Positions 2,980 to 18,055 of a stretch of DNA of 20,281 nt are shown piece by piece. Position 1 is the stretch's first letter. Each line of letters starts with the position of its first letter. The stretch covers positions 1 to 20,281 of IMG/VR virus record IMGVR_UViG_3300017739_000160, one strand, 5' to 3'. Made by a program: the position numbers and the translations under genes. This stretch comes from a virus. The notes below the pieces were generated by a model that was given only the letters and a program-made list of their open reading frames with translations, was not told the origin of the DNA and searched no databases.

Positions 2980-3699
2980 ATGCCATTGCCAAAAATTGCT
3001 GCTCCAACATATGAGCTTGAATTGCCATCAACTGGAGAAACTATAGAATACAGACCATTTCTTGTTAAAGAAGAGAAGCTTTTAATAATTGCTCTTGAGA
3101 GTGAAGATATGAAGCAGATTACAAATGGTATTAAAAATGTACTACGAAATTGTATTCTGACATCTGGTATAAAGGTTCAAGATCTTCCAACTTTTGATAT
3201 TGAATATTTGTTTTTAAATATTCGTGGAAAATCTGTTGGCGAATCTATCGAGGTCAATCTTCTCTGTCCGGATGATGGGGAGACAGAGGTAAAGGCAAAG
3301 ATTTGGTTGGATGATATAAAAGTCAAGAAGTATGATGATCATAATGATAAAATCAAAATCGATGATACTATAATGGTTCAGATGAAATACCCATCTCTGG
3401 ATCAATTCATCAAAAGTAATTTTGATTTTTCTAAAAAGACTAGTATGGATCAGACTTTTGAGTTAGTTGCTTCTTGTATTGGAACAATTTTTACTGAGGA
3501 AGAGGCTTGGTCTTCATCAGATTGTACTAAAAAAGAAATGGTTGAGTTTTTGGAGTCAATGAACTCATCTCAATTCAAAGAGATTGAAAAATTCTTTGAG
3601 ACTATGCCAAAACTATCGCATGAAATAAAGCTTACAAACCCAAATACCAAGGTCGAGAGTGATATTTTACTTGAGGGACTTGCATCTTTTTTCGCCTAG
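2980..3699 (+). CDS. 26: Baseplate hub/tail assembly protein gp26
   Basis: The 239-aa product fits the T4 baseplate gp26 family (T4 gp26 is 208 aa): the N-terminal LPKIAAPTYELELPSTG, YRPFLVKEEKLLIIALES, a NCILTSGIKVQDLPTFDIEY segment with FLNIRGKSVG just after it, and a helical C-terminal half. 'Pfl.kEEK.LL.A.es' followed by 'fdieylflniR.kS.Ge' is the family hallmark. T4 gp26 is needed for hub assembly. The gene is preceded by a late promoter but no good Shine-Dalgarno. Its last codons TCT TTT TTC GCC TAG contain a slippery heptamer in the right phase, so about the last residue could be bypassed by a -1 frameshift into gp51, giving a 300-aa fusion. Together with its place upstream of the tape measure, this suggests it acts as the short form of a tail-assembly chaperone. 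Confidence 0.85.
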   Translation: MPLPKIAAPTYELELPSTGETIEYRPFLVKEEKLLIIALESEDMKQITNGIKNVLRNCILTSGIKVQDLPTFDIEYLFLNIRGKSVGESIEVNLLCPDDGETEVKAKIWLDDIKVKKYDDHNDKIKIDDTIMVQMKYPSLDQFIKSNFDFSKKTSMDQTFELVASCIGTIFTEEEAWSSSDCTKKEMVEFLESMNSSQFKEIEKFFETMPKLSHEIKLTNPNTKVESDILLEGLASFFA

Positions 3700-3728
3700 G
3701 CATGGCTCATATGGATCTTATGAGCTAT
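3673..3728 (+). promoter_or_regulatory. Candidate programmed -1 ribosomal frameshift signal (gp26 to gp51)
   Basis: Three elements are seen in order. GAGGGA (3673-3678) is SD-like and lies 8 bases before the slip site. T TTT TTC (3687-3693) is a canonical X XXY YYZ heptamer, with TTT and TTC as the zero-frame codons 237-238 of gp26. After an 8-base spacer, 3702-3711 pairs with 3719-3728 (10 bp, one G-U, 7-base loop). A -1 slip continues as CGC CTA GGC and then the gp51 ATG in frame, with no stop. The elements and spacings match those known to stimulate -1 frameshifting in bacteria (for example dnaX) and in lambda-type tail chaperone genes. The activity itself is inferred. Confidence 0.7.
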
Positions 3729-3881
3729 TACAAATTAAATTTTTCTCTAATGCAGTACCATAAATATTCATTGACAGAGATTGAGAATATGATCCCCTGG
3801 GAGCGCGATGTTTATGTTATATTATTAAAAAATCATCTTGAAGAAGAAAAACTAAAAGCAGAACAAAATGCCAACCGCTAG
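3702..3881 (+). CDS. 51: Short gp51-like baseplate hub assembly protein, probably made mainly as a gp26 fusion
   Basis: This small gene encodes 59 residues: MAHMDLMSYYKLNFSLMQYH, then KYSLTEIENMIPWERDVYVI and a Lys/Glu-rich end. The 'YYKlNFslMQyHKySltEiEnMIPWERdvY' pattern is the conserved core of gp51-type hub-assembly factors in T4-like phages of marine bacteria; T4 gp51 itself (249 aa) is far longer. In T4 it is catalytic for hub assembly and not part of the virion. The ORF starts 2 bases after the gp26 stop in the -1 frame, has no adjacent Shine-Dalgarno, and its ATG forms the base of a hairpin (3702-3728), so independent initiation should be weak. Its stop overlaps the next gene by 14 bases. 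Confidence 0.8.
   Translation: MAHMDLMSYYKLNFSLMQYHKYSLTEIENMIPWERDVYVILLKNHLEEEKLKAEQNANR
3759..3766 (+). promoter_or_regulatory. Possible internal late promoter CATAAATA in gp51
   Basis: An exact NATAAATA match lies inside gp51, 101 bases before the ATG at 3868. Codons for Tyr-His-Lys-Tyr naturally give this string, and those residues are conserved in the family, so it may be fortuitous. If used, it would add transcripts for the tape-measure genes. Confidence 0.2.
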
Positions 3882-6192
3882 GCCAGAAACTATACAAAAG
3901 ATGCGTAGCAAGCTCCAGAGTTTACTGGGGCTGGATTTGTCTTTGCTTTCTAACGATCAAGTTGAAGAGTTGAGTGATGAATATCTAAAAAAAGAAGATA
4001 AGTATATAAGTGATATAACTGATTCTGCTAAGGAGAACACTGCTCTCCATAGAATGGCTCGTAAGTTTTTCAAAAAAAATACTCAAGTAGATAGATTGGA
4101 AGGGGCTCGTGAAAGAGATTTGGAAGATGATAGTGATCCAAACCTTAGAAATCGTGCCGATAGAATTATCTCTCAAGAGCAAAGGGGCTCACAAAGGAAT
4201 AGACAATTCTTTAATAGCGAAGAATTTAATAAGAACTTTTTCAACAGAGCAAGATATGATAGAGAAACTCTAGATACGGAGAGGTTTATTGGGAGGGATT
4301 CTGGTGATGCAGATGATACGGATGATGCTGCAAATTCAATAAATGATATAGAAGAAAGTGTAACAAATATTGAAGAGGTTTTATCGGAGCAGGATACTTC
4401 TTTAGATGGTATTGTTGATGGGTTGAGGGAAGAAAGAGATGCTGAGAATAACTTAAGAAATATCGCTAGAAGAAATAGCTCTAGAGAAGAGAGAAGAAAT
4501 AGACGGCAGAAGCAAAAGGAAAAGAGATTAAAGAGAGAGGCGGCATCGGAAAATATTATCAAAGGTTTGGTGGCTGGCGTTCAGAAAACACTAGCTCCAG
4601 TTAGTGACATTTTTGATAATGTATTTAAATTCATTTCAAATATATTTCTAAGTAAAATTCTTGAAGATCTTTTGAAATGGGCAAGCGATCCAAAAAACAG
4701 ATCTAAAGTAAAAAATATTATTAGATTTCTCCAGACCTGGTGGCCAGCAATTCTTGGTTCATATATTCTATTTGGCACTACCTTTGGAAAATTTATAAGA
4801 GCATCTATTGGGGCGACAGTAAAGGGAGTTGGAGCTTTAATTAAGGCAATTCGTTTTCTTAGAACTCAACAGAGGATGGGAAATCTTCGTGGGGCACTTT
4901 CTGGAATGCTTGGCAAAGGTGGAAAAGCTGCGTTAATTGGTGCTGGCATTTTGGGAACAGCAGCCATAGGTTCTGCTATAGTTTCTGCGGTATCTACTCC
5001 AAAAGAAGAAAAAGAACTTGAAAGTTCTGGGGATGATTTGGAGGGTTCTTCTACCCCTGAACTTCAGTTTTCTGGTGGAGGTGAAAATGATTTGAGTAGT
5101 ATGAAGCCATTTGATGCTGAAGATGGTGGTATTGTAAAGGGAAAGAAGGGAAAGGATAAAAATCTTGGTTGGCTTACAGATGGTGAAATCGTATTGACTG
5201 AAAAAGCCAGAGATCGTGCTATTAAAGAAACGGGAATGGACCCATTGGTATTTAATATGGATGGGTCTCCTGATGCAAACAGGCCAACAATCAAAAATGA
5301 AATTTACTATGCATCTGGTGGTGGTGTCATTGGGCGTGATAAGTACCTGGGTCAGGGAGAAACTACTGCGGCACCAAAAATGATGACGCCTAATAATTCA
5401 TTCTCAAATAATTATTTGGGCAATTTTACTAATAATATTTTTGACAACTCTTCTGACAATTTTACTAACAATATTTCTGATAATTCTTTTGGTAATTTTA
5501 CTAATAATATTTCTGATAATTCTTTTTTAATGTCAGAAAATATGTTTTCTTCGGAACAACTTTTTAATATTCCTTCTGTAAATGAAGATACATTTTTTCC
5601 ATCTGAGAATAATTTTATGAGTTATCCCACGGTTAATTCTTCTAATAGATTTTTTGGTGGCAATACAAGTGTTGATAATTCTAAATCACATTCTAAAAAT
5701 ATTTTTGGGAAAATACTTGATAATAGTATAGTCAATAATATTATCAAGCATGGTAGTAATATTTTTAATCTTGGTAATACAGTAAGTAATACCGTAAGAA
5801 ATGATTCTGATATATCAAGTAGTACAATTATAAAAGAAAATACTGGGATGGACATACCTGGTGGTACAGCCGATCGTCAGAAATTGTCTATTAATGTTCA
5901 ACCCGGAGAAGCGCATGTAATTGTTCCAAATGAAGTTGTCCAACGTGGCGGTCTCCATCATATTGAAAATATTATTAACATGTATGATGATGGAACTTCA
6001 TTCGCAAGTCGTAATAGTGGCAATATTGAGATGCCAGAACCTCCTCAAATCAAACAACCAAGGATAACATTTATTTCTTCCCCAGACCAGAATCAAACTA
6101 TTGAGACTGGTGGATCTGAATTAGGTGAAGTTGAAATGTTTGATGCTACATTTGCATCATCTAGAAAGCTCAAAACTTTGGGGGTAGGATGA
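3868..6192 (+). CDS. Large tail protein, candidate tape measure (774 aa)
   Basis: No close named relative is recognised, but position and architecture suggest a tape measure or companion. Residues 1-235 are highly charged and helix/coiled-coil-like, ending in an Arg/Lys/Glu-rich run. Residues about 235-335 hold amphipathic and hydrophobic helices (IIRFLQTWWPAILGSYILFG), and 354-376 a Gly/Ala-rich membrane-like segment. Around 425-470 is GWLTDGEIVLTEKARDRAI, and around 670-700 MDIPGGTADRQKLSINVQPG with EAHVIVPNEVV after it. Such 'PGE.xvxP' segments recur at the C-termini of phage tape-measure proteins. Between them is an Asn/Ser/Phe-rich region with three 12-residue repeats (518-553). The start overlaps gp51 by 14 bases, suggesting coupling; no strong Shine-Dalgarno is seen. 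T4's own tape measure gp29 (590 aa) is not clearly recognisable here. Confidence 0.6.
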   Translation: MPTARPETIQKMRSKLQSLLGLDLSLLSNDQVEELSDEYLKKEDKYISDITDSAKENTALHRMARKFFKKNTQVDRLEGARERDLEDDSDPNLRNRADRIISQEQRGSQRNRQFFNSEEFNKNFFNRARYDRETLDTERFIGRDSGDADDTDDAANSINDIEESVTNIEEVLSEQDTSLDGIVDGLREERDAENNLRNIARRNSSREERRNRRQKQKEKRLKREAASENIIKGLVAGVQKTLAPVSDIFDNVFKFISNIFLSKILEDLLKWASDPKNRSKVKNIIRFLQTWWPAILGSYILFGTTFGKFIRASIGATVKGVGALIKAIRFLRTQQRMGNLRGALSGMLGKGGKAALIGAGILGTAAIGSAIVSAVSTPKEEKELESSGDDLEGSSTPELQFSGGGENDLSSMKPFDAEDGGIVKGKKGKDKNLGWLTDGEIVLTEKARDRAIKETGMDPLVFNMDGSPDANRPTIKNEIYYASGGGVIGRDKYLGQGETTAAPKMMTPNNSFSNNYLGNFTNNIFDNSSDNFTNNISDNSFGNFTNNISDNSFLMSENMFSSEQLFNIPSVNEDTFFPSENNFMSYPTVNSSNRFFGGNTSVDNSKSHSKNIFGKILDNSIVNNIIKHGSNIFNLGNTVSNTVRNDSDISSSTIIKENTGMDIPGGTADRQKLSINVQPGEAHVIVPNEVVQRGGLHHIENIINMYDDGTSFASRNSGNIEMPEPPQIKQPRITFISSPDQNQTIETGGSELGEVEMFDATFASSRKLKTLGVG
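5419..5526 (+). repeat. Three tandem 36-bp repeats in the 774-aa gene
   Basis: Units 5419-5454, 5455-5490 and 5491-5526 are direct, in-frame 36-bp repeats differing at a few bases. They encode GNFTNNIFDNSS, DNFTNNISDNSF and GNFTNNISDNSF. The second and third units differ at only a few positions. Flanking Asn/Ser-rich sequence looks like further decayed copies. There are no spacers, so this is not a CRISPR. Copy-number change would alter protein length by 12 residues per unit. Confidence 0.93.
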
Positions 6193-6193
6193 T

Positions 6194-8677
6194 ATGATGT
6201 ATGATAAGATGAAGGATATAAGAGAGAGAAAAAGGGGAAGGGTTAATATTACTGGTGATGGTGGTAGTGGTGGTAGTAGATACAATATTACTAGCTCTTC
6301 TGATAGATCTACTGCATCAAATCTAGTTTCTTCGGGTAGCGTATCGGGGTCTCTTAATAATATATCTGATACATTATCTAATATTAATAGATCTATATCT
6401 TTTAGATCTGAAAGATATGAAGCAATAGAAAAAAATATTAGTAAAAAAGATAGCTCATCTCAAGAAGAACTTAGAGACCAGAATCTTAGGGATAGGGAAG
6501 AGCAGGATGAAGAAAATAGAGAACAGCAACAGCAGGATAGGCGAGAAAGAGAAGCCAATAAAGAAAAGAAAAAGAAAAATTCAAAAATAAAACTTCCAAT
6601 ACCTAGTATGCCTAGAACTGGTATATTTGATGCTATAAAATCATTCATTGTAAATGTTTTGTTTGGGAGGTTTTTGATCAAGATGTTGGAATTTGCTCCT
6701 ATGTTAAAAGGTCTTCTTGGTCTTTTGGCTCCTGTAGCAAAATTCATTTACAGTGTTGGAAAGAAAATCTTAGATGCTGGTGCTACATTTATTGATTTTG
6801 GTTTTAAAGCATATGATTTTACTCGTGGTATTGTTGGAAAACTTACTGGAGATTTGGGCCTAGGTATATTTGATAAATTATCATCGACCCTGACTACATT
6901 TTTAAATCTAGCAATTGTCACGGTACTTGCTGCTTCAGCTGCTGCATCGTCACAAAACAATCAACAAGGTATAGATACAATTCGTGGAATTGGACCTGGT
7001 AGAGCTAAACGAGGAGCTGTAGCTGTTGATGCCGCACGAAGATATGCTTCTAGGTTTGGTAAAGATGCTGCTATACAAAGGTTTGGTTCTGATGCAGTTA
7101 AGAGTTTGGGTGGTAAGTATGCTAGATCTTCCATCACAAACTTTAGTAGAAATGCTGCTGTAAAGGTTCTTGGCAAAAGAGGTGCGGCAAAATCAATTAA
7201 AGCTGCTGCAGGAATACTCAAACCACTTGTAAAAAATATTCCTTTGATTGGTGGTATCACTGAGTTCGTTCTTTCTTTGATATCTGGGGATCCAGTTGGA
7301 AAGGCTGCATTCAAAGGTATTGGTGCTGGGTTGGGTACTTGGATTGGTGGCGCACTTGGAACACTGATTCCTGTTCCAGGCGTAGGAACTGCTATTGGTA
7401 TGTTCTTGGGTGGCACTGGCGGATCTCTTTTGGGTAGTGCGATTTATGATATGATTACTGGGAAGAAGGGTCCATCTAGGATAAGAACAAGAACAAGAGC
7501 TAGAAGTAGGGGTGGAGAAGTTTCAGATGACACTCCAGAAATTGAATCTAAAAAATATATTACTCCAATACGGAAACCGAAATCAGATGGATTTGAGAAT
7601 GAGGTTGCGGATAGAATAAGTCAAGTTGAATATTTTGGTCCAATCGTTGAAGCCACATCAAAGATGATAAATGTGGATAATGAAGATGATGATGATAAAA
7701 AGAATTATATACTTGAAAATTCAGACTATAGAAAAATTGAAGATGGTCTTGCATTAATGCTTAAGGATTTTAATATGGTGTCTGATAAGAAGTTGCATGA
7801 AATTTATACAACTGGTATGTTAGAAAGCCTCGTTAAGAAAGAATTTGATAAAAAGAAGCCTCTAGAAAAGAAGAAGAAGAATAAAGGTAGGAGAAGGGGA
7901 GGAGGAGTAAATAATCGTGATGGAGACGAAAGTAGCAATGGCATGTCTGATGACAACTCAAAAGACCCTGTCAGTGATGTGCATGTTTCCTCACTTGGAT
8001 CCGGTGGAGGATCTCTCAAGGATATGAGTGACCAGGACTTTAGTGATCTTGCTTTCATTGTCAGCCATGAGGCACTGAGAGGAACTAATGATGAGTATGC
8101 TGTTGCTGCAGCTGTCCTTAATAGAGTTGCTGATCCTAGATATCCAAATACTATTATGGGTGTTGGGACTGCCCCTGGACAATTTGAGGCAGTATTTAGT
8201 GGTAAAGCATATAGAGATGAGGATCTTGCTAAACAGTTAAAGGATAATCAGGGTAAAATTATTGATGCTTTGAAAAAATTAGATGGTAGAACTGACTTCA
8301 AAGCATTTAGCAGTATGGGTCAATTTATGGGTGATAGTGATATTAGGTTCGCCACTATGGGAAACTTCTATCATTATGCTGAACAGCAAGCAAAGTCAGA
8401 CCCAATTCCAAGTAATATTCCAAAAGATTGGCAGAAATTATTAGGAGAACCTGTAGCTCTTGAAAAAGGAGGAATTATAGCAAGTGATAAAATGAATAAC
8501 ATGGCAAACGATATTAGCCAATATGCATCTTATGAGAGTGGATCTGAAGGATCCTTGACTGTAGTAATACCTGGGACTAATACTACTATTATTAATAAAA
8601 CATCTCAAGTTGCAGCTAGTATTGGTTCTGGTGGTTCCAGAGAAGATAGTTATGAATTCCTTGAATTTATTGGTTAA
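6194..8677 (+). CDS. Tape-measure-like tail protein with SleB/CwlJ-type cell-wall hydrolase domain (827 aa)
   Basis: Residues 1-75 are Ser/Asn-rich and 78-133 a Gln/Glu/Arg/Lys coiled-coil-like stretch. From 145-260 there are hydrophobic helices, 270-345 is basic and Ala-rich, and 376-421 is a glycine-zipper-like hydrophobic block (GVGTAIGMFLGGTGGSLLGS). After a charged linker, about 611-728 matches the SleB/CwlJ hydrolase family: FSDLAFIVSHEALRG with candidate catalytic E626, YAVAAAVLNRVADPRYPNTI, APGQFEAVFSG, and a closing FYHYA. These enzymes cleave peptidoglycan, so the domain would open the cell wall during DNA entry. The tail (729-827) includes a VVIPGT segment. The start lies 1 base after the previous stop, behind a GGGGTAGGA ribosome site; an ATG at 6197 is also possible. 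The hydrophobic core suggests membrane insertion or ejection with the DNA. Confidence 0.75.
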   Translation: MMYDKMKDIRERKRGRVNITGDGGSGGSRYNITSSSDRSTASNLVSSGSVSGSLNNISDTLSNINRSISFRSERYEAIEKNISKKDSSSQEELRDQNLRDREEQDEENREQQQQDRREREANKEKKKKNSKIKLPIPSMPRTGIFDAIKSFIVNVLFGRFLIKMLEFAPMLKGLLGLLAPVAKFIYSVGKKILDAGATFIDFGFKAYDFTRGIVGKLTGDLGLGIFDKLSSTLTTFLNLAIVTVLAASAAASSQNNQQGIDTIRGIGPGRAKRGAVAVDAARRYASRFGKDAAIQRFGSDAVKSLGGKYARSSITNFSRNAAVKVLGKRGAAKSIKAAAGILKPLVKNIPLIGGITEFVLSLISGDPVGKAAFKGIGAGLGTWIGGALGTLIPVPGVGTAIGMFLGGTGGSLLGSAIYDMITGKKGPSRIRTRTRARSRGGEVSDDTPEIESKKYITPIRKPKSDGFENEVADRISQVEYFGPIVEATSKMINVDNEDDDDKKNYILENSDYRKIEDGLALMLKDFNMVSDKKLHEIYTTGMLESLVKKEFDKKKPLEKKKKNKGRRRGGGVNNRDGDESSNGMSDDNSKDPVSDVHVSSLGSGGGSLKDMSDQDFSDLAFIVSHEALRGTNDEYAVAAAVLNRVADPRYPNTIMGVGTAPGQFEAVFSGKAYRDEDLAKQLKDNQGKIIDALKKLDGRTDFKAFSSMGQFMGDSDIRFATMGNFYHYAEQQAKSDPIPSNIPKDWQKLLGEPVALEKGGIIASDKMNNMANDISQYASYESGSEGSLTVVIPGTNTTIINKTSQVAASIGSGGSREDSYEFLEFIG

Positions 8678-10039: not shown

Positions 10040-10261
10040 ATGACCGAAAAAAGAACAATTGATCAGCACATTGAAGCTGATAAACAGATTTTAGATGACC
10101 CAATGATTTCTCCCCAAAAGCGTCGTCATACTCAGGAAGAATTGGAAAGACTTGAAAAGTATAAGATAAGTCATCCAGAGGATTCTCATGATCCAACAGA
10201 TTTTGAGATGTTCTGTGATGAGCAACCATGGGCAGTTGAGTGTAAGTTATACGAGGATTGA
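10040..10261 (+). CDS. 73-aa protein with CP12-like C-terminal motif
   Basis: The protein is 73 aa, about the size of cyanobacterial CP12, and mostly charged helix. Its end, FEMFCDEQPWAVECKLYED, follows the CP12 C-terminal pattern 'Y/F-C-x4-P-x3-EC-x-x-Y-E/D-D', with C59 and C68 spaced by eight residues as in CP12. CP12 binds GAPDH through this redox-sensitive tail and helps lock the Calvin cycle enzymes GAPDH and PRK. The CP12 N-terminal AWD_VEEL core is not present; instead there is DDPMISPQKRRHTQEELERL. It sits in the hub operon between gp27 and gp5, with a GAGG ribosome site (10031-10034 region). The role could be host metabolic control, or a structural/chaperone one using the same fold; neither is shown. 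Confidence 0.7.
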   Translation: MTEKRTIDQHIEADKQILDDPMISPQKRRHTQEELERLEKYKISHPEDSHDPTDFEMFCDEQPWAVECKLYED

Positions 10262-11899: not shown

Positions 11900-14800
11900 A
11901 TGATAGATAGTAAATTTACCCTATTTGACAGAGCAAGTTCTGATAATATTCGTGTCGGATATGTTGACCCCAAAAGAGGCTACATTGATAATGTTACTAT
12001 TGAAGAAGCCAATAAGTATGCGAAAAAGAACCCTGGCACAGTATTTATTCTTAAGACTAGAGATAAGACTAAATATCTGACAATTAATAAAGTAAATAAA
12101 CTAACAACCGAAGATGTAAAAACTAAGAAAAAATGTAAAGGCGTAAAAGGAATCAATAAAAATGATAAAAAGAGTGTACCTAAAGTTAACATAAGTGGGT
12201 GTGGTGGAGTAGGTGCAGCAGCTAATATAGTTATTAGTCCAGAAGATAATTCTGTTTTATCAGTTGAGGTTATTAGTCACGGATTTGGTTATACTTGTGA
12301 GCCAAAGGTTACTATTGAGGATGATGGTACAAGATTGATGCCAAAATTTCTCTCAAGAATTGGGCCTGTTGAAACTGAAGCTATTAGTTTTGGTGACTTT
12401 GATTTTGAGGATTATAAAATACCGGTAGAAGACAATACATTATCTTCTGATTACGATGAGAATGGGTATGAAATTGGAGATTGGGATCCCGATGCCTATC
12501 TGACAGATACTAATATCCCAAACTTCACTGAGATACAAATGTATCAGAGATACATGAAAAATCTTACGAATCCTTGGTGGTCTACTAGAACTCGTAGTTT
12601 TGCTCAAACATCTTCTAAAATAAATTTCAATAGGTTGAAATATGATGTTGAGCATTGGAAGTGGGGAGAGAAAATATATGATACAGATTTTGTATTTACA
12701 GAGTTTGATGTCTTTAGTAGTGGAAGCATAAAGAATAGAAGAATTGAGGTAGAATTTGTTGCTCAAGATGATAGTGGTCATAAATTTACTTTGAAGGGAA
12801 TAAATCAGAATTTTACTCAAACATTTAGGAAAAAAGTAAAGCTAAACACTACATACAAAGTAACTCCTAAAGGTCTTAAAGGAACGGCAAAAGAAAAAAT
12901 AGAACAGCAGTTACTTAAGGAACGCTCTTTTGGTAAAGATGGTGTTGAAAAGGTACTTGATAGGGAGGGTAGTTATACAGATTTGACGGATGCTGCAAAG
13001 AGTAAAGCTGCATTTTTCGATATCATTGGATCGGCAAATGATAATGATGACTTGCAGATTTTTTCTAGACGTGGTGAATTTAGAGGTACTAAACTCTTGA
13101 AAGGAGATCCTCTGAAAGATCAAGCTAGAAACTCTCATAGTCTAACTTTCCGCATTGATAAAGATCCCAAGCCACGGGAAAGCTTTATGAATAAGTATGC
13201 GATATCTCCAGTTCCCGCATCAGATTCACCTGGATCAGATTATTCCAATATTCAATATATAATGAAGTGGGATATAAATTTCCCAATCACTGGAGATTAC
13301 GTATTTAAAGGGCAGGCTGATACTGGTGGGCAGTTATTGATTGATGGTGAAACGATTGACGATTTGCCGGGAATAACAAACAAAGAAAAGCCAGGTAAGT
13401 GGACAAGGAAAATAGAGAGGGGTGTTCATGAAGTTAGATTGGATGTTCTAAATGAGCCTAAAATTAAGACCAGAGATCTAAAACAAATTTATAGCAATGG
13501 TGGTCGTGGTGGCTGTCCAACTGAAATTGATTTTAAAGTAACTACAGATTCAGATTTTGCAAGTGGAATTAAAATTCCTGATTTAAATATTGATTTTACT
13601 AAAGATCGTGGGGGTGAGCAATTAAATAAATCTTTCTCGCGCACGGTTGAACATGGAAAAGAGTATGATGTTACTTGCACTAGCAGTAGTCCTGGCGGTG
13701 GAGGAAAGAGTAATGAATATAAGATTCGAGTAGCAGACCCTGGATCTTTGGGTAGGGGACCTACTGCTCAAGTTAAATCTGTTTCCAATAAGACAATTAA
13801 ATTCACAGATGCGGCTTATCAAATGGATACTGACGCACAATTCAAAATTTTATCAACATCACCTGGAGTTAGTGCTAGGTTTAGTGGGAGCAATGATAAG
13901 GATCTTAAGTTAATTGTTAAAGGTGAGGGTGATGTCACTTTACAATTGAAGTGGGATGAAAATCCAAATAAAAATGGAGAGGCAGTTGGCAATATTAAAG
14001 TTGGTGGTGAGGTGTGGAAGCAGACAGCACATAAAGATAGGAAAGATGATGTAACGAAAACTATTAAGGTAAGTGGTGGTGATAGTAGTCGTAAAAAAGC
14101 TAATATTAAACTTAAAACTGCTGGAGAAAATGTTCTTCAAATGGAAGATAATGGAGATGATGATCAGTCAGTTTTAGTTTGCACTGTTAGTTGTGGTAGG
14201 TTTATTAACATCAATGGAAACAGATGCAAATTGATATTTGATGCGCCTGAAAAACGAGACAAATCAGTAGTATCAATTTTTAATACTAAAGATAGTATTA
14301 AGGATGCCAATCAAAAGCTGTGGAGAACAGATGGTGAATCCGGAGAAGGTGACCTCTCTGATTTTTTCAATAGGTACGGTGTGCGCCCATATAGAAAGGT
14401 AGCAACTGTAGAAAATAGGAACAAAGTTACTGCAAAATTTGATAAAGATGGATCAGACTTATTTTTGAAATTGAATGGTGTTGGTGAAGTAGAGATTGAT
14501 TTTTTAATGGATGTTAATGATAATCTCACAGATTCTGGACTGGCTGCCAGTGAAATAAGAATTGAAACTGACACCCAACCACTTATTTTAAAAAGAGATG
14601 TAACACTAAATTCTACCTCTAGGGCACTTCCTCCCGATGGTCGTTTTGGGAGAGGTAATGGTAGAGGAAGTAACAGGTCAAGTTATTATACTGGTAAAGA
14701 GAAGGAAAAAGTTAAAGGTAAAGGAGAGTTTACTGGTGGCAAAAAGTATAAGGTAAAAATTATTGGTGGAAGTAGTGATTCTGGGTTTAAAACAATTGAT

Positions 14801-17800
14801 AAAACCACAGTTGGTTTTGATGACAATATTAGTAATGGTTTTGATGAGAATATTGGTCTTAAGATTAAGAAAATTAAACAACTTACTGTGAAGGAAGATG
14901 TTCTTGATTTGTCTGAAATTTCTGAAGCTTATGAGGTTGTATGGGATAATGTAGTTTTTCCTGTTGATGGAGAATATGAGATTGACTATGCTGCTCGTGA
15001 CAATCTTTTGCTAACGATTCGTGAAGCTGGTCAGTTGGGACCTGTGTATCAAGAAAAGACACTTGCTTATGTATATCATGATTTTAAGGCCATGGATAAA
15101 GGAACTAAGGTCGAAAAGTTTACGGCAGGTACTTATAGAATTGCTGCTATGGTACAGCAAAAGAAAATTAAAGAGGTCAAGAAAGGGAAGCTGTTGTCTT
15201 TTGGACTGAATATAAAGACTAAAGGGGAAGTAAGTTTTGAGTTGGATCAATCTTGGCAGGAAAATCCACTTGGAGTTGCCCTAACTATCAAAGCACCCAA
15301 ACCACCAAAATTAGAATTGGAAGATGGTAGGAAGTGGGAGAAGGATCAATGTCCCCCTAATCCATTATGGTCAACGAAATTTAAAACTAATAATTCTAAA
15401 AAGTCTTGGTGGCCAGTGATTGATCCAAATAATAAGTGGGGTCGCTTCATGGAGCAGTATGCGATATCTCCAGTAGAACCATCTGCAATAAAAGGAACTG
15501 CTACTGGTTTAGATTACTATAAGAATACTTGGGATCTTGAGATTTTGCATGATGGCACATATGGCTTGAAGGGAGCCTGTGACAAGCATGGGCAAGTTTC
15601 TATTCACAAAAAAGATGATGAAGGAAATTCTAGTATGGTTGCAATTATTCATACGAATAAGTATGAACTTAGTAGTGAAGTTAAAAAAAATCTGAAAGAA
15701 AAGAACATTGGGAAACTGCGTCCTGCTAAATTTACCAACCCAGAATTTCTTACTTTTGAATTAAAAAAGGGAAAGTATAAAGTTGAAGCTGAAGTCAAAA
15801 ATTCAAATACAGATATTTTAAAAAATATAAATAAAAAAGTTTTTCATACTGCAGATTGGGTATATACTAAAAAGAAACCTCCTAGATTTGTTGAGGTTTA
15901 CTTTACTGTTGAGGGGCAGGGTACGATAGGACATCGTGCAATAAAATTTGAATTTACTGAGAAGATTGGTAAGAAGTATACTTATGATCCACATACATTT
16001 ACAATTAGGAATCCTAAGACAGGTAATGTCAAGGAAAAAATAGCTGTTAGACTGAAGCCAAATACTGACTATGATGTTAAAGCAGTGCCTATGGATGTAA
16101 CACCCTTACAAAAGTTCAGAAGATTTACTATACAAACTATGGGCAGTCCTACATCTGCAATTAAGGATGTTTCTAAAAAGAGGATTAAATATACAGATTC
16201 GGTCAGTCAAGATGATACTGATGCAGAATTTTTAATTAAATCAACATCGCCTGGAATAAAAGCAGAGTTTAGTCCAAGTGGGCGCGAATTGATTGTGCAT
16301 GGAAGAGGTAACGGAACAGTAGATTTGGAATTGAAGTGGAGTGATGATGTATATAAAAATGGTCAAGCAGTTGGGCAACTTACTGTTGGTGATCTTGTAT
16401 TTAAGCAGAGGGGGAAAAAGGGAGATAAAGAAAAAACTCTAAAAGTTGATGCCATTGGACTTGCTAAGAACGAAAAAAATAGTGGCATATTGGAGCAGGG
16501 GACTATAGTTAAAAATCGTGAGGGTAAGGTAGAGGATATTAGTAATGAAATATTTGCAGATTATTATAAATCCGCTAATGATGATGATGATATTAGGGTC
16601 AAAGCTGCAGATGGATTATTTACGCCATCAAATCAAAGAAGATTGTCCAAAGATTCTGATAAGTTTGTTAAGAAGTATGGGGAAGGAGTACGTGGAAGAG
16701 GTACGTATGATTTGACATATAGATTTGAACTTGATGACCAATCTGATTATATAAAAAGTGTTGGAGATGCTAGATTTATGTCAGAGTATGATGGTCAGGA
16801 TATCGAAGTTACTGCATATAGTCGCTTAGCCAAAAAGGGTGATATCGGCCTTCGGATGACCCCAGTGTTTTACCATTCAAAACATATTATGGGTAAGACT
16901 TGGAAATTGAGATGGGAAGATGTCGATTTCCCTGAAGCTGGAATTTATAGAATTCAATTAGAAGGAGATGATGAGGCCAAACTGTTTATTGATGGCGAGA
17001 AAATATGTAAAGCTACAAAAGATGATGGTGTTGTTGAGGATTTTATTGAGGTTAAATCTCCTGGCAAAAGGATAATTGAGATTGAACTTCAAAATCGACG
17101 TATGGGAACAGATAAAGTTCGCTACACAAAATATAAAGTTAACCCAACTTTTGTTGCAGCAAAAATAACAACCCCAGTCGAAATCGACACTGGAAAGGAT
17201 GAGACCTGGGTTGATAACCCAATAGGAATTTCCGCCGTTTTAGTTCCTCCACCATGTATAGTAAAAGAACCAGGTGATGGTGGTTTAACAGACATCATCC
17301 TATTAGAAGAGGGTGGAAACATTAATGGTGGTGGGGATCCACCCCCCTTTGAGGAACCAGAACCAGGCGAACCTGAGGGACCAGAGCCAGGTGATGACGA
17401 TGATGGTGATGGTGGTGGTGAAGGTAGTGACACTGGTGATGACACTGGTGGTGGTGATGATGGTGATGATAATGATCCTGGGGGAGGAGATCCTGGCGAA
17501 CCTAACTATCCGGTCCTTGCTAAGCTTAAAGAAGTAATCGTAGGTGATCCTGGTATTAATTATGATTGCGCAGGAGATCCGATCGTAATCACCCCAGACA
17601 ATGGTGCAAAATTGGAATATGAGTGTGATCCTTTTGGAAAAATTCGTAAGGTCAATGTAATTGATCCAGGAGGCCCAGTCACAAAGAGACCTACAATTAT
17701 GATCAATAGTGAGACTGGTGTCAATGCTCGGTTCATACCGGTTATTGATGTTATTCGTGACCCAATTACGGATGACCCATCTAAGCTAATTACCGTTACG

Positions 17801-18055
17801 GACCTTGTTGGTGTTAAAAAGACCGGCTACTATAAAGGTAGACCATATTATGGTTCGGTTTATTATGAGGATGGTATTAAATATGCAGGATACTATGAAA
17901 CACCTGGAGATCCAGTTCAGATTTATGATACTTTAGAAGAAAGTATTACTGGAGTGGTCAAGAAAGATTCGTCTGGAACGATACGTCTTGGTACTGATAC
18001 TCTTGATAATCAAACAGGTTTGGATATACCAGGAACTCCAGATTATCTTGCGTAA
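11900..18055 (+). CDS. Giant modular virion protein (2051 aa) with PA14-like and repeated beta modules
   Basis: No named family fits the whole protein. It is made of repeated beta-rich modules. Four PA14-like units have 'W-D/E-x-x-x-FP-x-x-G-x-Y' cores with W457, W1015, W1211 and W1672 and, in two, LLIDGE/LFIDGE strands; PA14 domains bind carbohydrate. A second module (623-724, 1419-1516, and more diverged about 843-891) shares 'TDAQF.I.STSPGv.A.F' and 'L.LKW'. A 'W.xNPxGx' strand precedes two proline-rich breaks (about 1118 and 1770). Residues about 1805-1870 are a Gly/Asp/Pro/Glu linker. After it come a 'GxNYDC..DPIVI' unit echoing N-terminal residues 101-143, and a GYYKGRPYYGSVYY C-terminus. 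A tail fibre, baseplate or surface-adhesion role is inferred from size and neighbours. The ATG follows CGAGGA with 8-base spacing. Confidence 0.7.
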   Translation: MIDSKFTLFDRASSDNIRVGYVDPKRGYIDNVTIEEANKYAKKNPGTVFILKTRDKTKYLTINKVNKLTTEDVKTKKKCKGVKGINKNDKKSVPKVNISGCGGVGAAANIVISPEDNSVLSVEVISHGFGYTCEPKVTIEDDGTRLMPKFLSRIGPVETEAISFGDFDFEDYKIPVEDNTLSSDYDENGYEIGDWDPDAYLTDTNIPNFTEIQMYQRYMKNLTNPWWSTRTRSFAQTSSKINFNRLKYDVEHWKWGEKIYDTDFVFTEFDVFSSGSIKNRRIEVEFVAQDDSGHKFTLKGINQNFTQTFRKKVKLNTTYKVTPKGLKGTAKEKIEQQLLKERSFGKDGVEKVLDREGSYTDLTDAAKSKAAFFDIIGSANDNDDLQIFSRRGEFRGTKLLKGDPLKDQARNSHSLTFRIDKDPKPRESFMNKYAISPVPASDSPGSDYSNIQYIMKWDINFPITGDYVFKGQADTGGQLLIDGETIDDLPGITNKEKPGKWTRKIERGVHEVRLDVLNEPKIKTRDLKQIYSNGGRGGCPTEIDFKVTTDSDFASGIKIPDLNIDFTKDRGGEQLNKSFSRTVEHGKEYDVTCTSSSPGGGGKSNEYKIRVADPGSLGRGPTAQVKSVSNKTIKFTDAAYQMDTDAQFKILSTSPGVSARFSGSNDKDLKLIVKGEGDVTLQLKWDENPNKNGEAVGNIKVGGEVWKQTAHKDRKDDVTKTIKVSGGDSSRKKANIKLKTAGENVLQMEDNGDDDQSVLVCTVSCGRFININGNRCKLIFDAPEKRDKSVVSIFNTKDSIKDANQKLWRTDGESGEGDLSDFFNRYGVRPYRKVATVENRNKVTAKFDKDGSDLFLKLNGVGEVEIDFLMDVNDNLTDSGLAASEIRIETDTQPLILKRDVTLNSTSRALPPDGRFGRGNGRGSNRSSYYTGKEKEKVKGKGEFTGGKKYKVKIIGGSSDSGFKTIDKTTVGFDDNISNGFDENIGLKIKKIKQLTVKEDVLDLSEISEAYEVVWDNVVFPVDGEYEIDYAARDNLLLTIREAGQLGPVYQEKTLAYVYHDFKAMDKGTKVEKFTAGTYRIAAMVQQKKIKEVKKGKLLSFGLNIKTKGEVSFELDQSWQENPLGVALTIKAPKPPKLELEDGRKWEKDQCPPNPLWSTKFKTNNSKKSWWPVIDPNNKWGRFMEQYAISPVEPSAIKGTATGLDYYKNTWDLEILHDGTYGLKGACDKHGQVSIHKKDDEGNSSMVAIIHTNKYELSSEVKKNLKEKNIGKLRPAKFTNPEFLTFELKKGKYKVEAEVKNSNTDILKNINKKVFHTADWVYTKKKPPRFVEVYFTVEGQGTIGHRAIKFEFTEKIGKKYTYDPHTFTIRNPKTGNVKEKIAVRLKPNTDYDVKAVPMDVTPLQKFRRFTIQTMGSPTSAIKDVSKKRIKYTDSVSQDDTDAEFLIKSTSPGIKAEFSPSGRELIVHGRGNGTVDLELKWSDDVYKNGQAVGQLTVGDLVFKQRGKKGDKEKTLKVDAIGLAKNEKNSGILEQGTIVKNREGKVEDISNEIFADYYKSANDDDDIRVKAADGLFTPSNQRRLSKDSDKFVKKYGEGVRGRGTYDLTYRFELDDQSDYIKSVGDARFMSEYDGQDIEVTAYSRLAKKGDIGLRMTPVFYHSKHIMGKTWKLRWEDVDFPEAGIYRIQLEGDDEAKLFIDGEKICKATKDDGVVEDFIEVKSPGKRIIEIELQNRRMGTDKVRYTKYKVNPTFVAAKITTPVEIDTGKDETWVDNPIGISAVLVPPPCIVKEPGDGGLTDIILLEEGGNINGGGDPPPFEEPEPGEPEGPEPGDDDDGDGGGEGSDTGDDTGGGDDGDDNDPGGGDPGEPNYPVLAKLKEVIVGDPGINYDCAGDPIVITPDNGAKLEYECDPFGKIRKVNVIDPGGPVTKRPTIMINSETGVNARFIPVIDVIRDPITDDPSKLITVTDLVGVKKTGYYKGRPYYGSVYYEDGIKYAGYYETPGDPVQIYDTLEESITGVVKKDSSGTIRLGTDTLDNQTGLDIPGTPDYLA
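13194..15474 (+). repeat. Direct 19-bp repeat marking duplicated PA14-like modules
   Basis: The 19-base string AGTATGCGATATCTCCAGT occurs at 13194-13212 and 15456-15474, in frame and encoding YAISPV in both. The flanking protein (FMNKYAISPV / FMEQYAISPV) continues into the PA14-like units with W457 and W1211. The surrounding DNA is diverged, so the identity reflects an old duplication with conserved function or recent gene conversion. Confidence 0.85.
13766..16447 (+). repeat. Duplicated beta module in the giant protein
   Basis: Residues 623-724 (13766-14071) and 1419-1516 (16154-16447) align along their length. Shared points are 'K/R-IKfTD', 'DTDAxF-I-STSPG', an L-x-LKW strand, 'KNGxAVGxxxVG' and a closing 'KTlKV'. 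A weaker third copy covers residues about 843-891. These are protein-level repeats; DNA identity is patchy. Confidence 0.85.
17316..17505 (+). repeat. Low-complexity GGTGATGAT-rich linker region
   Basis: This stretch is trinucleotide-biased (GGT, GAT, GAC, GGA) and encodes a Gly/Asp/Pro/Glu linker inside the giant protein. The DNA microrepeats make it prone to slippage or recombination. The acidic residues suggest a flexible or Ca2+-binding spacer, which is inference. Confidence 0.8.

Follow-up and report, generated by a model that had tools for sequence, protein, structure and literature searches.

In the stretch of DNA analyzed here, gp26 and gp51 very probably represent one gene that is decoded in two ways by −1 programmed ribosomal frameshifting, giving a short (TAC-N) and a long (TAC-NC) tail assembly chaperone, as judged from comparative sequence evidence. 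The window, i.e., the whole stretch of 20,281 bases, is a viral record from a cyanophage-type T4-like phage and contains genes for T4_baseplate gp26, a gp4-like head completion protein, a tail-tube-like protein, a gp5-like hub protein, and CP12. Among the matches listed, the nearest named relative by gp26 was Synechococcus phage SynMITS9220M01 (74.5%), a member of the family Kyanoviridae. The CP12-domain protein, a host photosynthesis regulator that cyanophages carry, is encoded at 10040-10261 (Pfam 5e-9) within the baseplate hub gene cluster. Positions 11900-18055 form one ORF of 2051 aa with no assigned function and, close to its end, a low-complexity stretch rich in Gly, Asp, and Glu.

The gp26-gp51 junction

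The 3' end of gp26 reads GAG GGA CTT GCA TCT TTT TTC GCC TAG, with the stop codon at 3697-3699. The following features were assigned:

2980..3699, + strand: gp26, short chaperone (TAC-N), 239 aa; Pfam PF12322 (E = 3e-73) and phrog_150 (3.5e-77)
3673..3678, + strand: SD-like GAGGGA, 8 nt 5' of the heptamer (GAGG core 10 nt), read from the sequence; putative stimulator
3687..3693, + strand: slippery heptamer T_TTT_TTC in the gp26 frame (X_XXY_YYZ phase) over codons 237-238; sequence and conservation in relatives
3693..3881, + strand: −1-frame extension (gp51 domain, TAC-C) of the 300-aa gp26-gp51 fusion (TAC-NC); translation, phrog_634 (4.4e-27), the tail end of phrog_150, and a match of the −1-domain HMM to the C terminus of T4 gp51 (4e-11)
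3694..3701, + strand: 8-nt spacer including the gp26 stop codon; sequence
3702..3728, + strand: 10-bp stem with a 7-nt loop, putative 3' stimulatory hairpin; fold of −13.3 kcal/mol and synonymous-codon shuffles on relatives
3868..6192, + strand: ORF of 774 aa directly downstream of the gp51 frame; candidate tape-measure-like client by position and length

The SD-like GAGGGA, the in-phase T TTT TTC, the 8-base spacer, and the hairpin of 10 bp with a 7-base loop had been described in the original prediction, and all four were confirmed to the base. Translation likewise bore out its claim that the −1 frame runs without a stop into the gp51 ATG (CGC CTA GGC ATG) to give a 300-aa product. After the −1 slip the frame is open up to 3881, and the fusion has a deduced mass of 34.9 kDa (gp26: 27.4 kDa).

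In the proposed mechanism, most ribosomes would terminate at TAG 3697 and release gp26, the short form of the tail assembly chaperone. A smaller fraction would be held by pairing of the upstream SD-like GAGG with 16S rRNA and by the hairpin just downstream, slip back by one base on T_TTT_TTC, re-pair on TTT TTT, and continue through the gp51 frame to the 300-aa long chaperone. Both forms would act on the tape measure protein in tail and hub assembly, as lambda gpG/gpGT do. The sequences show the signal, its conservation, the co-linearity of the fusion with T4 gp51, and selection on RNA structure; we infer that ribosomes shift here, how often they do so, and that the products act as chaperones. 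The 774-aa ORF at 3868-6192 received no direct family assignment as a tape measure protein. This ORF and that at 6194-8677, which are tandem and tape-measure-like, have a stretch in common (24% identity, E = 5e-8) that suggests an old duplication; the second ORF has a SleB-type cell wall hydrolase domain.

Conservation of the heptamer and decoding of the gp51 frame

For comparison, 291 distinct related junctions were collected from viral-contig scans and phage records, a well-populated set for one recoding site. An in-phase T_TTT_TTN was present at the gp26 end in 288 of the 291, mostly 3 nt ahead of the stop codon, versus an expectation of 0.005 per gene (last 15 codons); elsewhere in gp26, in-phase T_TTT_TT amounted to 20 in 64,419 codons. 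By these counts, the occurrence of the heptamer at the gp26 end is beyond chance. Carriers included syn9, P-SSM3, MED4-213, Melnitz-3, MA01, phiM7, and KVP40, as well as Cronobacter S13, Aeromonas AS-zj, PhiW-14, Marzo, and Atu_ph04.

Real exceptions were limited to two distant relatives, Pseudomonas phage Cygsa01 (3238) and Vibrio phage D510 (3139), in which the heptamer is absent and a gp51-like −1 frame is kept that starts at an overlapping TAATG. Thus, frameshifting is not universal, and the two phages possibly represent natural losses of it. A third heptamer-less junction (L368) was rejected as a true exception, since its end looks broken or misframed. The original prediction had named relatives that keep gp51 with a broken heptamer as counter-evidence; Cygsa01 and D510 are of this kind, and 288 of the 291 junctions retain the heptamer in phase.

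Judged by its start region, the gp51 frame is not an ordinary gene. No ATG, GTG, or TTG occurred between the upstream stop and the end of codon 8 of the −1 frame in 52 of 150 representatives. An ATG located 2-6 codons into this frame is present in the window and in many relatives, and an overlapping TAATG or TGATG was found in Cygsa01, D510, KVP40, and PhiW-14. These start codons, together with the public records that annotate gp51 as a gene of its own, would fit a separate gp51 protein whose translation begins at ATG 3702, through re-initiation or coupling, once gp26 has terminated at TAG 3697-3699. We consider such an origin very unlikely: the start codon is not conserved, as the 52 representatives without one demonstrate; the window has no SD motif at normal distance ahead of ATG 3702, the SD-like motif ending 23 nt before it; re-initiation leaves the invariant in-phase slippery heptamer unexplained; and in T4 the counterpart of the fusion is a single protein.

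The T run comprised 6 T in 270 of 280 sequences, and its phase to the gp26 codons was fixed. A homopolymeric T run, which only a few relatives lack, might also cause transcriptional slippage and thereby mRNAs that have gained or lost a base. Polymerase slippage usually needs a run of about 8-9 or more, and the run observed is short for it; moreover, slippage at the RNA level does not need the fixed phase, and the SD-like element and the hairpin are features that fit ribosomes. Slippage of the polymerase is therefore regarded as highly improbable, and −1 frameshifting by the ribosome as the preferred reading.

Public cyanophage records split this recoding site into two genes or leave gp51 out. 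Where gp51 is given as its own gene, the annotated start differs by record (syn9 3271, Melnitz-3 3250, positions in their own loci); it is omitted in others, and the −1-frame extension is unannotated in S13, AS-zj, Atu_ph04, and several Synechococcus phages. The unannotated gp51 domains are located at 3211-3375 in Cronobacter phage S13, 3205-3370 in Aeromonas phage AS-zj, and 3202-3378 in Agrobacterium phage Atu_ph04; those of S13 and AS-zj have no ATG near their start.

RNA structure and SD-like element around the heptamer

The RNA minimum free energy (MFE) calculated for 3694-3740 was −13.3 kcal/mol and was equalled by 3 of 200 dinucleotide shuffles. When synonymous codons were shuffled within alignment columns, the structure predicted at +6 to +45 past the heptamer had an MFE below that of the shuffles, with z values of −12 in near relatives and −8 in the others, versus mostly −4 to +1 in control windows farther downstream and within gp26. 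An independent codon-usage null gave Wilcoxon p values of 6e-4, 0.03, and 0.04 after thinning to 75%, 70%, and 65% identity, respectively, which are optimistic because the selection tests treat related sequences as partly independent; the control window was not significant under the same null and thinning. The structure signal weakened as relatives were thinned. These tests indicate that RNA structure just downstream of the heptamer is under selection beyond the amino acid sequence.

The stems formed at this downstream position differ between lineages, and no single shared helix emerged from APC-corrected mutual information over the downstream columns; an Rfam search gave no match. From this pattern, the hairpin is kept by position and is not column-conserved. 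Alignment of the junctions, which the original prediction had proposed as a check, hence upheld the heptamer and its phase, and failed to recover the exact 10-bp hairpin as a conserved helix. Separately, structure above that of synonymous shuffles was observed in near relatives at 3774-3813 inside gp51 (approximately +81 to +120 past the heptamer, z −6), a stretch that surrounds Pro-Trp-Glu codons.

Upstream of the heptamer, the Glu-Gly codons of 56 near relatives were always GAG-GGN or GAA-GGG. The Glu codon was GAG in 41 of the 56 (background 31%); Gly was encoded by GGG in 15/15 cases following GAA and in 3/41 following GAG. Thus, GAGG or AAGGG is preserved by compensating codons in the near relatives. 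Across relatives, GAGG/AAGG positions cluster 13-14 nt before the heptamer. The codon compensation was significant in near relatives (p 5e-11) and overall (p 1e-5), values that are optimistic for the reason given above, and was not significant once the set was thinned to 75% identity or less. An SD-energy test against synonymous codons was weak, with 62% of sequences below their own null mean, and the codon-pair test in near relatives was the only strong one among the SD tests. The conserved Glu-Gly in part dictates the motif; the codon pairs suggest RNA-level selection on the SD-like element in near relatives.

The third base of the codon preceding the two slip codons was always T, while the residue varied (Ser, Asn, Asp, or Ala, among others); for the second slip codon, relatives had TTC, TTA, or TTT. 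Thus, nucleotides are kept where residues change. That Phe-Phe and Leu-Glu-Gly are conserved by protein constraint only, with the open frame an accident of overlap, has next to no probability: the residues of LEG and FF are indeed conserved, and T4 gp26, for which no frameshift occurs, has GLKEFF at its end as well, but the T ahead of the slip codons is invariant across Ser, Asn, Asp, and Ala codons, the heptamer is kept where the second codon becomes Leu (TTA), and the RNA structure is selected beyond the amino acid sequence.

Relation to T4 gp26/gp51 and to known frameshift systems

PF12322 was matched by T4 gp26 (8.8e-64) and by residues 1-201 of T4 gp51 (3.9e-52), and both T4 proteins matched phrog_150. 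A profile built from frameshift fusions only matched T4 gp26 across the short form and T4 gp51 over the whole length of the fusion, demonstrating co-linearity of the fusion with T4 gp51, whereas the profile of the −1 domain alone matched T4 gp51 (4e-11) and not gp26. T4 gp26 ends in GLKEFFELL, which aligned with GLASFF at the slip site. T4 genes 26 and 51 are divergently transcribed; T4 therefore cannot frameshift between them, and its short and long forms are encoded separately. On these profile matches, the short and long frameshift products correspond to T4 gp26 and gp51, which are separate paralogues there. The window proteins comprise a gp26 domain and a predicted long form that equals the short form plus a C-terminal gp51 domain, as in T4-like chaperones.

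In a viral library, the AlphaFold model of gp26 (pLDDT 88) matched proteins annotated as gp26-type and one of gp51 type. Compared with PDB folds, the HK97 chaperone 2ob9 ranked second and fifth, which was not significant (E about 1, TM about 0.2). Nothing significant was found in the PDB by sequence, and an NCBIfam search gave nothing useful.

The −1 frameshift and the short/long chaperone pair of the original prediction are supported by conservation of the heptamer and its phase, by missing gp51 starts, and by co-linearity with T4 gp51, and further by the selected downstream structure and the SD-like codon compensation in near relatives. The abstract by Vladimirov and coworkers reportedly describes frameshifting as conserved in several T4-like groups, with T4 using genes 26 and 51. 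Our slight preference goes to a wider reading in which the T4-like signal has three parts and is dnaX-like, the hairpin being selected with its partners repeatedly rebuilt between lineages, the SD-like element being kept by compensating codons, and the T4 lineage having two paralogous genes.

The original prediction was not aware of such a pair being established for T4-like phages, but frameshifting of this kind has already been published for parts of the group. The T4-like tail assembly chaperone genes were identified by Vladimirov, Gautam & Davidson (2022, Virology 566:9-15), poly-T slippery sequences in T4-like TAC-N genes are known from the same work (cited in PMC12846349), and some T4-like phages have a short and a long gene in place of frameshifting (summary in PMC10885494). 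PMC3004832 counts T4 gp26 and gp51 among the hub assembly chaperones, and a review describes G-T frameshifting as widely conserved among phages with long tails, "except T4" (PMC5009743). The concept of a frameshift-made T4-like chaperone pair is already known and the window is a clean further example; our analysis independently reproduces the published conclusion and gives the T4 exception a concrete form, with T4 gp26 and gp51 as counterparts of the short and long products. The evidence for selected stimulators, i.e., the SD-like element with compensating codons and the hairpin with lineage-changing partners, may be new and go beyond it.

With the T4-like chaperones of Vladimirov et al. (2022), the window has the gene family (PF12322 plus gp51 domain) and the short/long logic in common; T4 has two separate divergent paralogues, whereas the window phage has one gene and a −1 shift. 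The Vandenendeviridae/Andersonviridae TAC locus is similar in its conserved −1 frameshift near the 3' terminus of TAC-N, its poly-T motif (GTTTTT), and a −1 frame that is open in every genome (PMC12846349); the phage families and the slippery motif differ. As in lambda gpG/gpGT, a short chaperone and its −1-frameshift long form are encoded just upstream of large tape-measure-like ORFs. The lambda slippery sequence is GGGAAAG. In the E. coli dnaX signal, an SD-like element is located approximately 10 nt ahead of a homopolymeric slippery heptamer that is followed by a hairpin, a layout that resembles the window signal; dnaX is an unrelated gene with A_AAA_AAG in place of T_TTT_TTC, and the hairpin of the window family is not one conserved helix.
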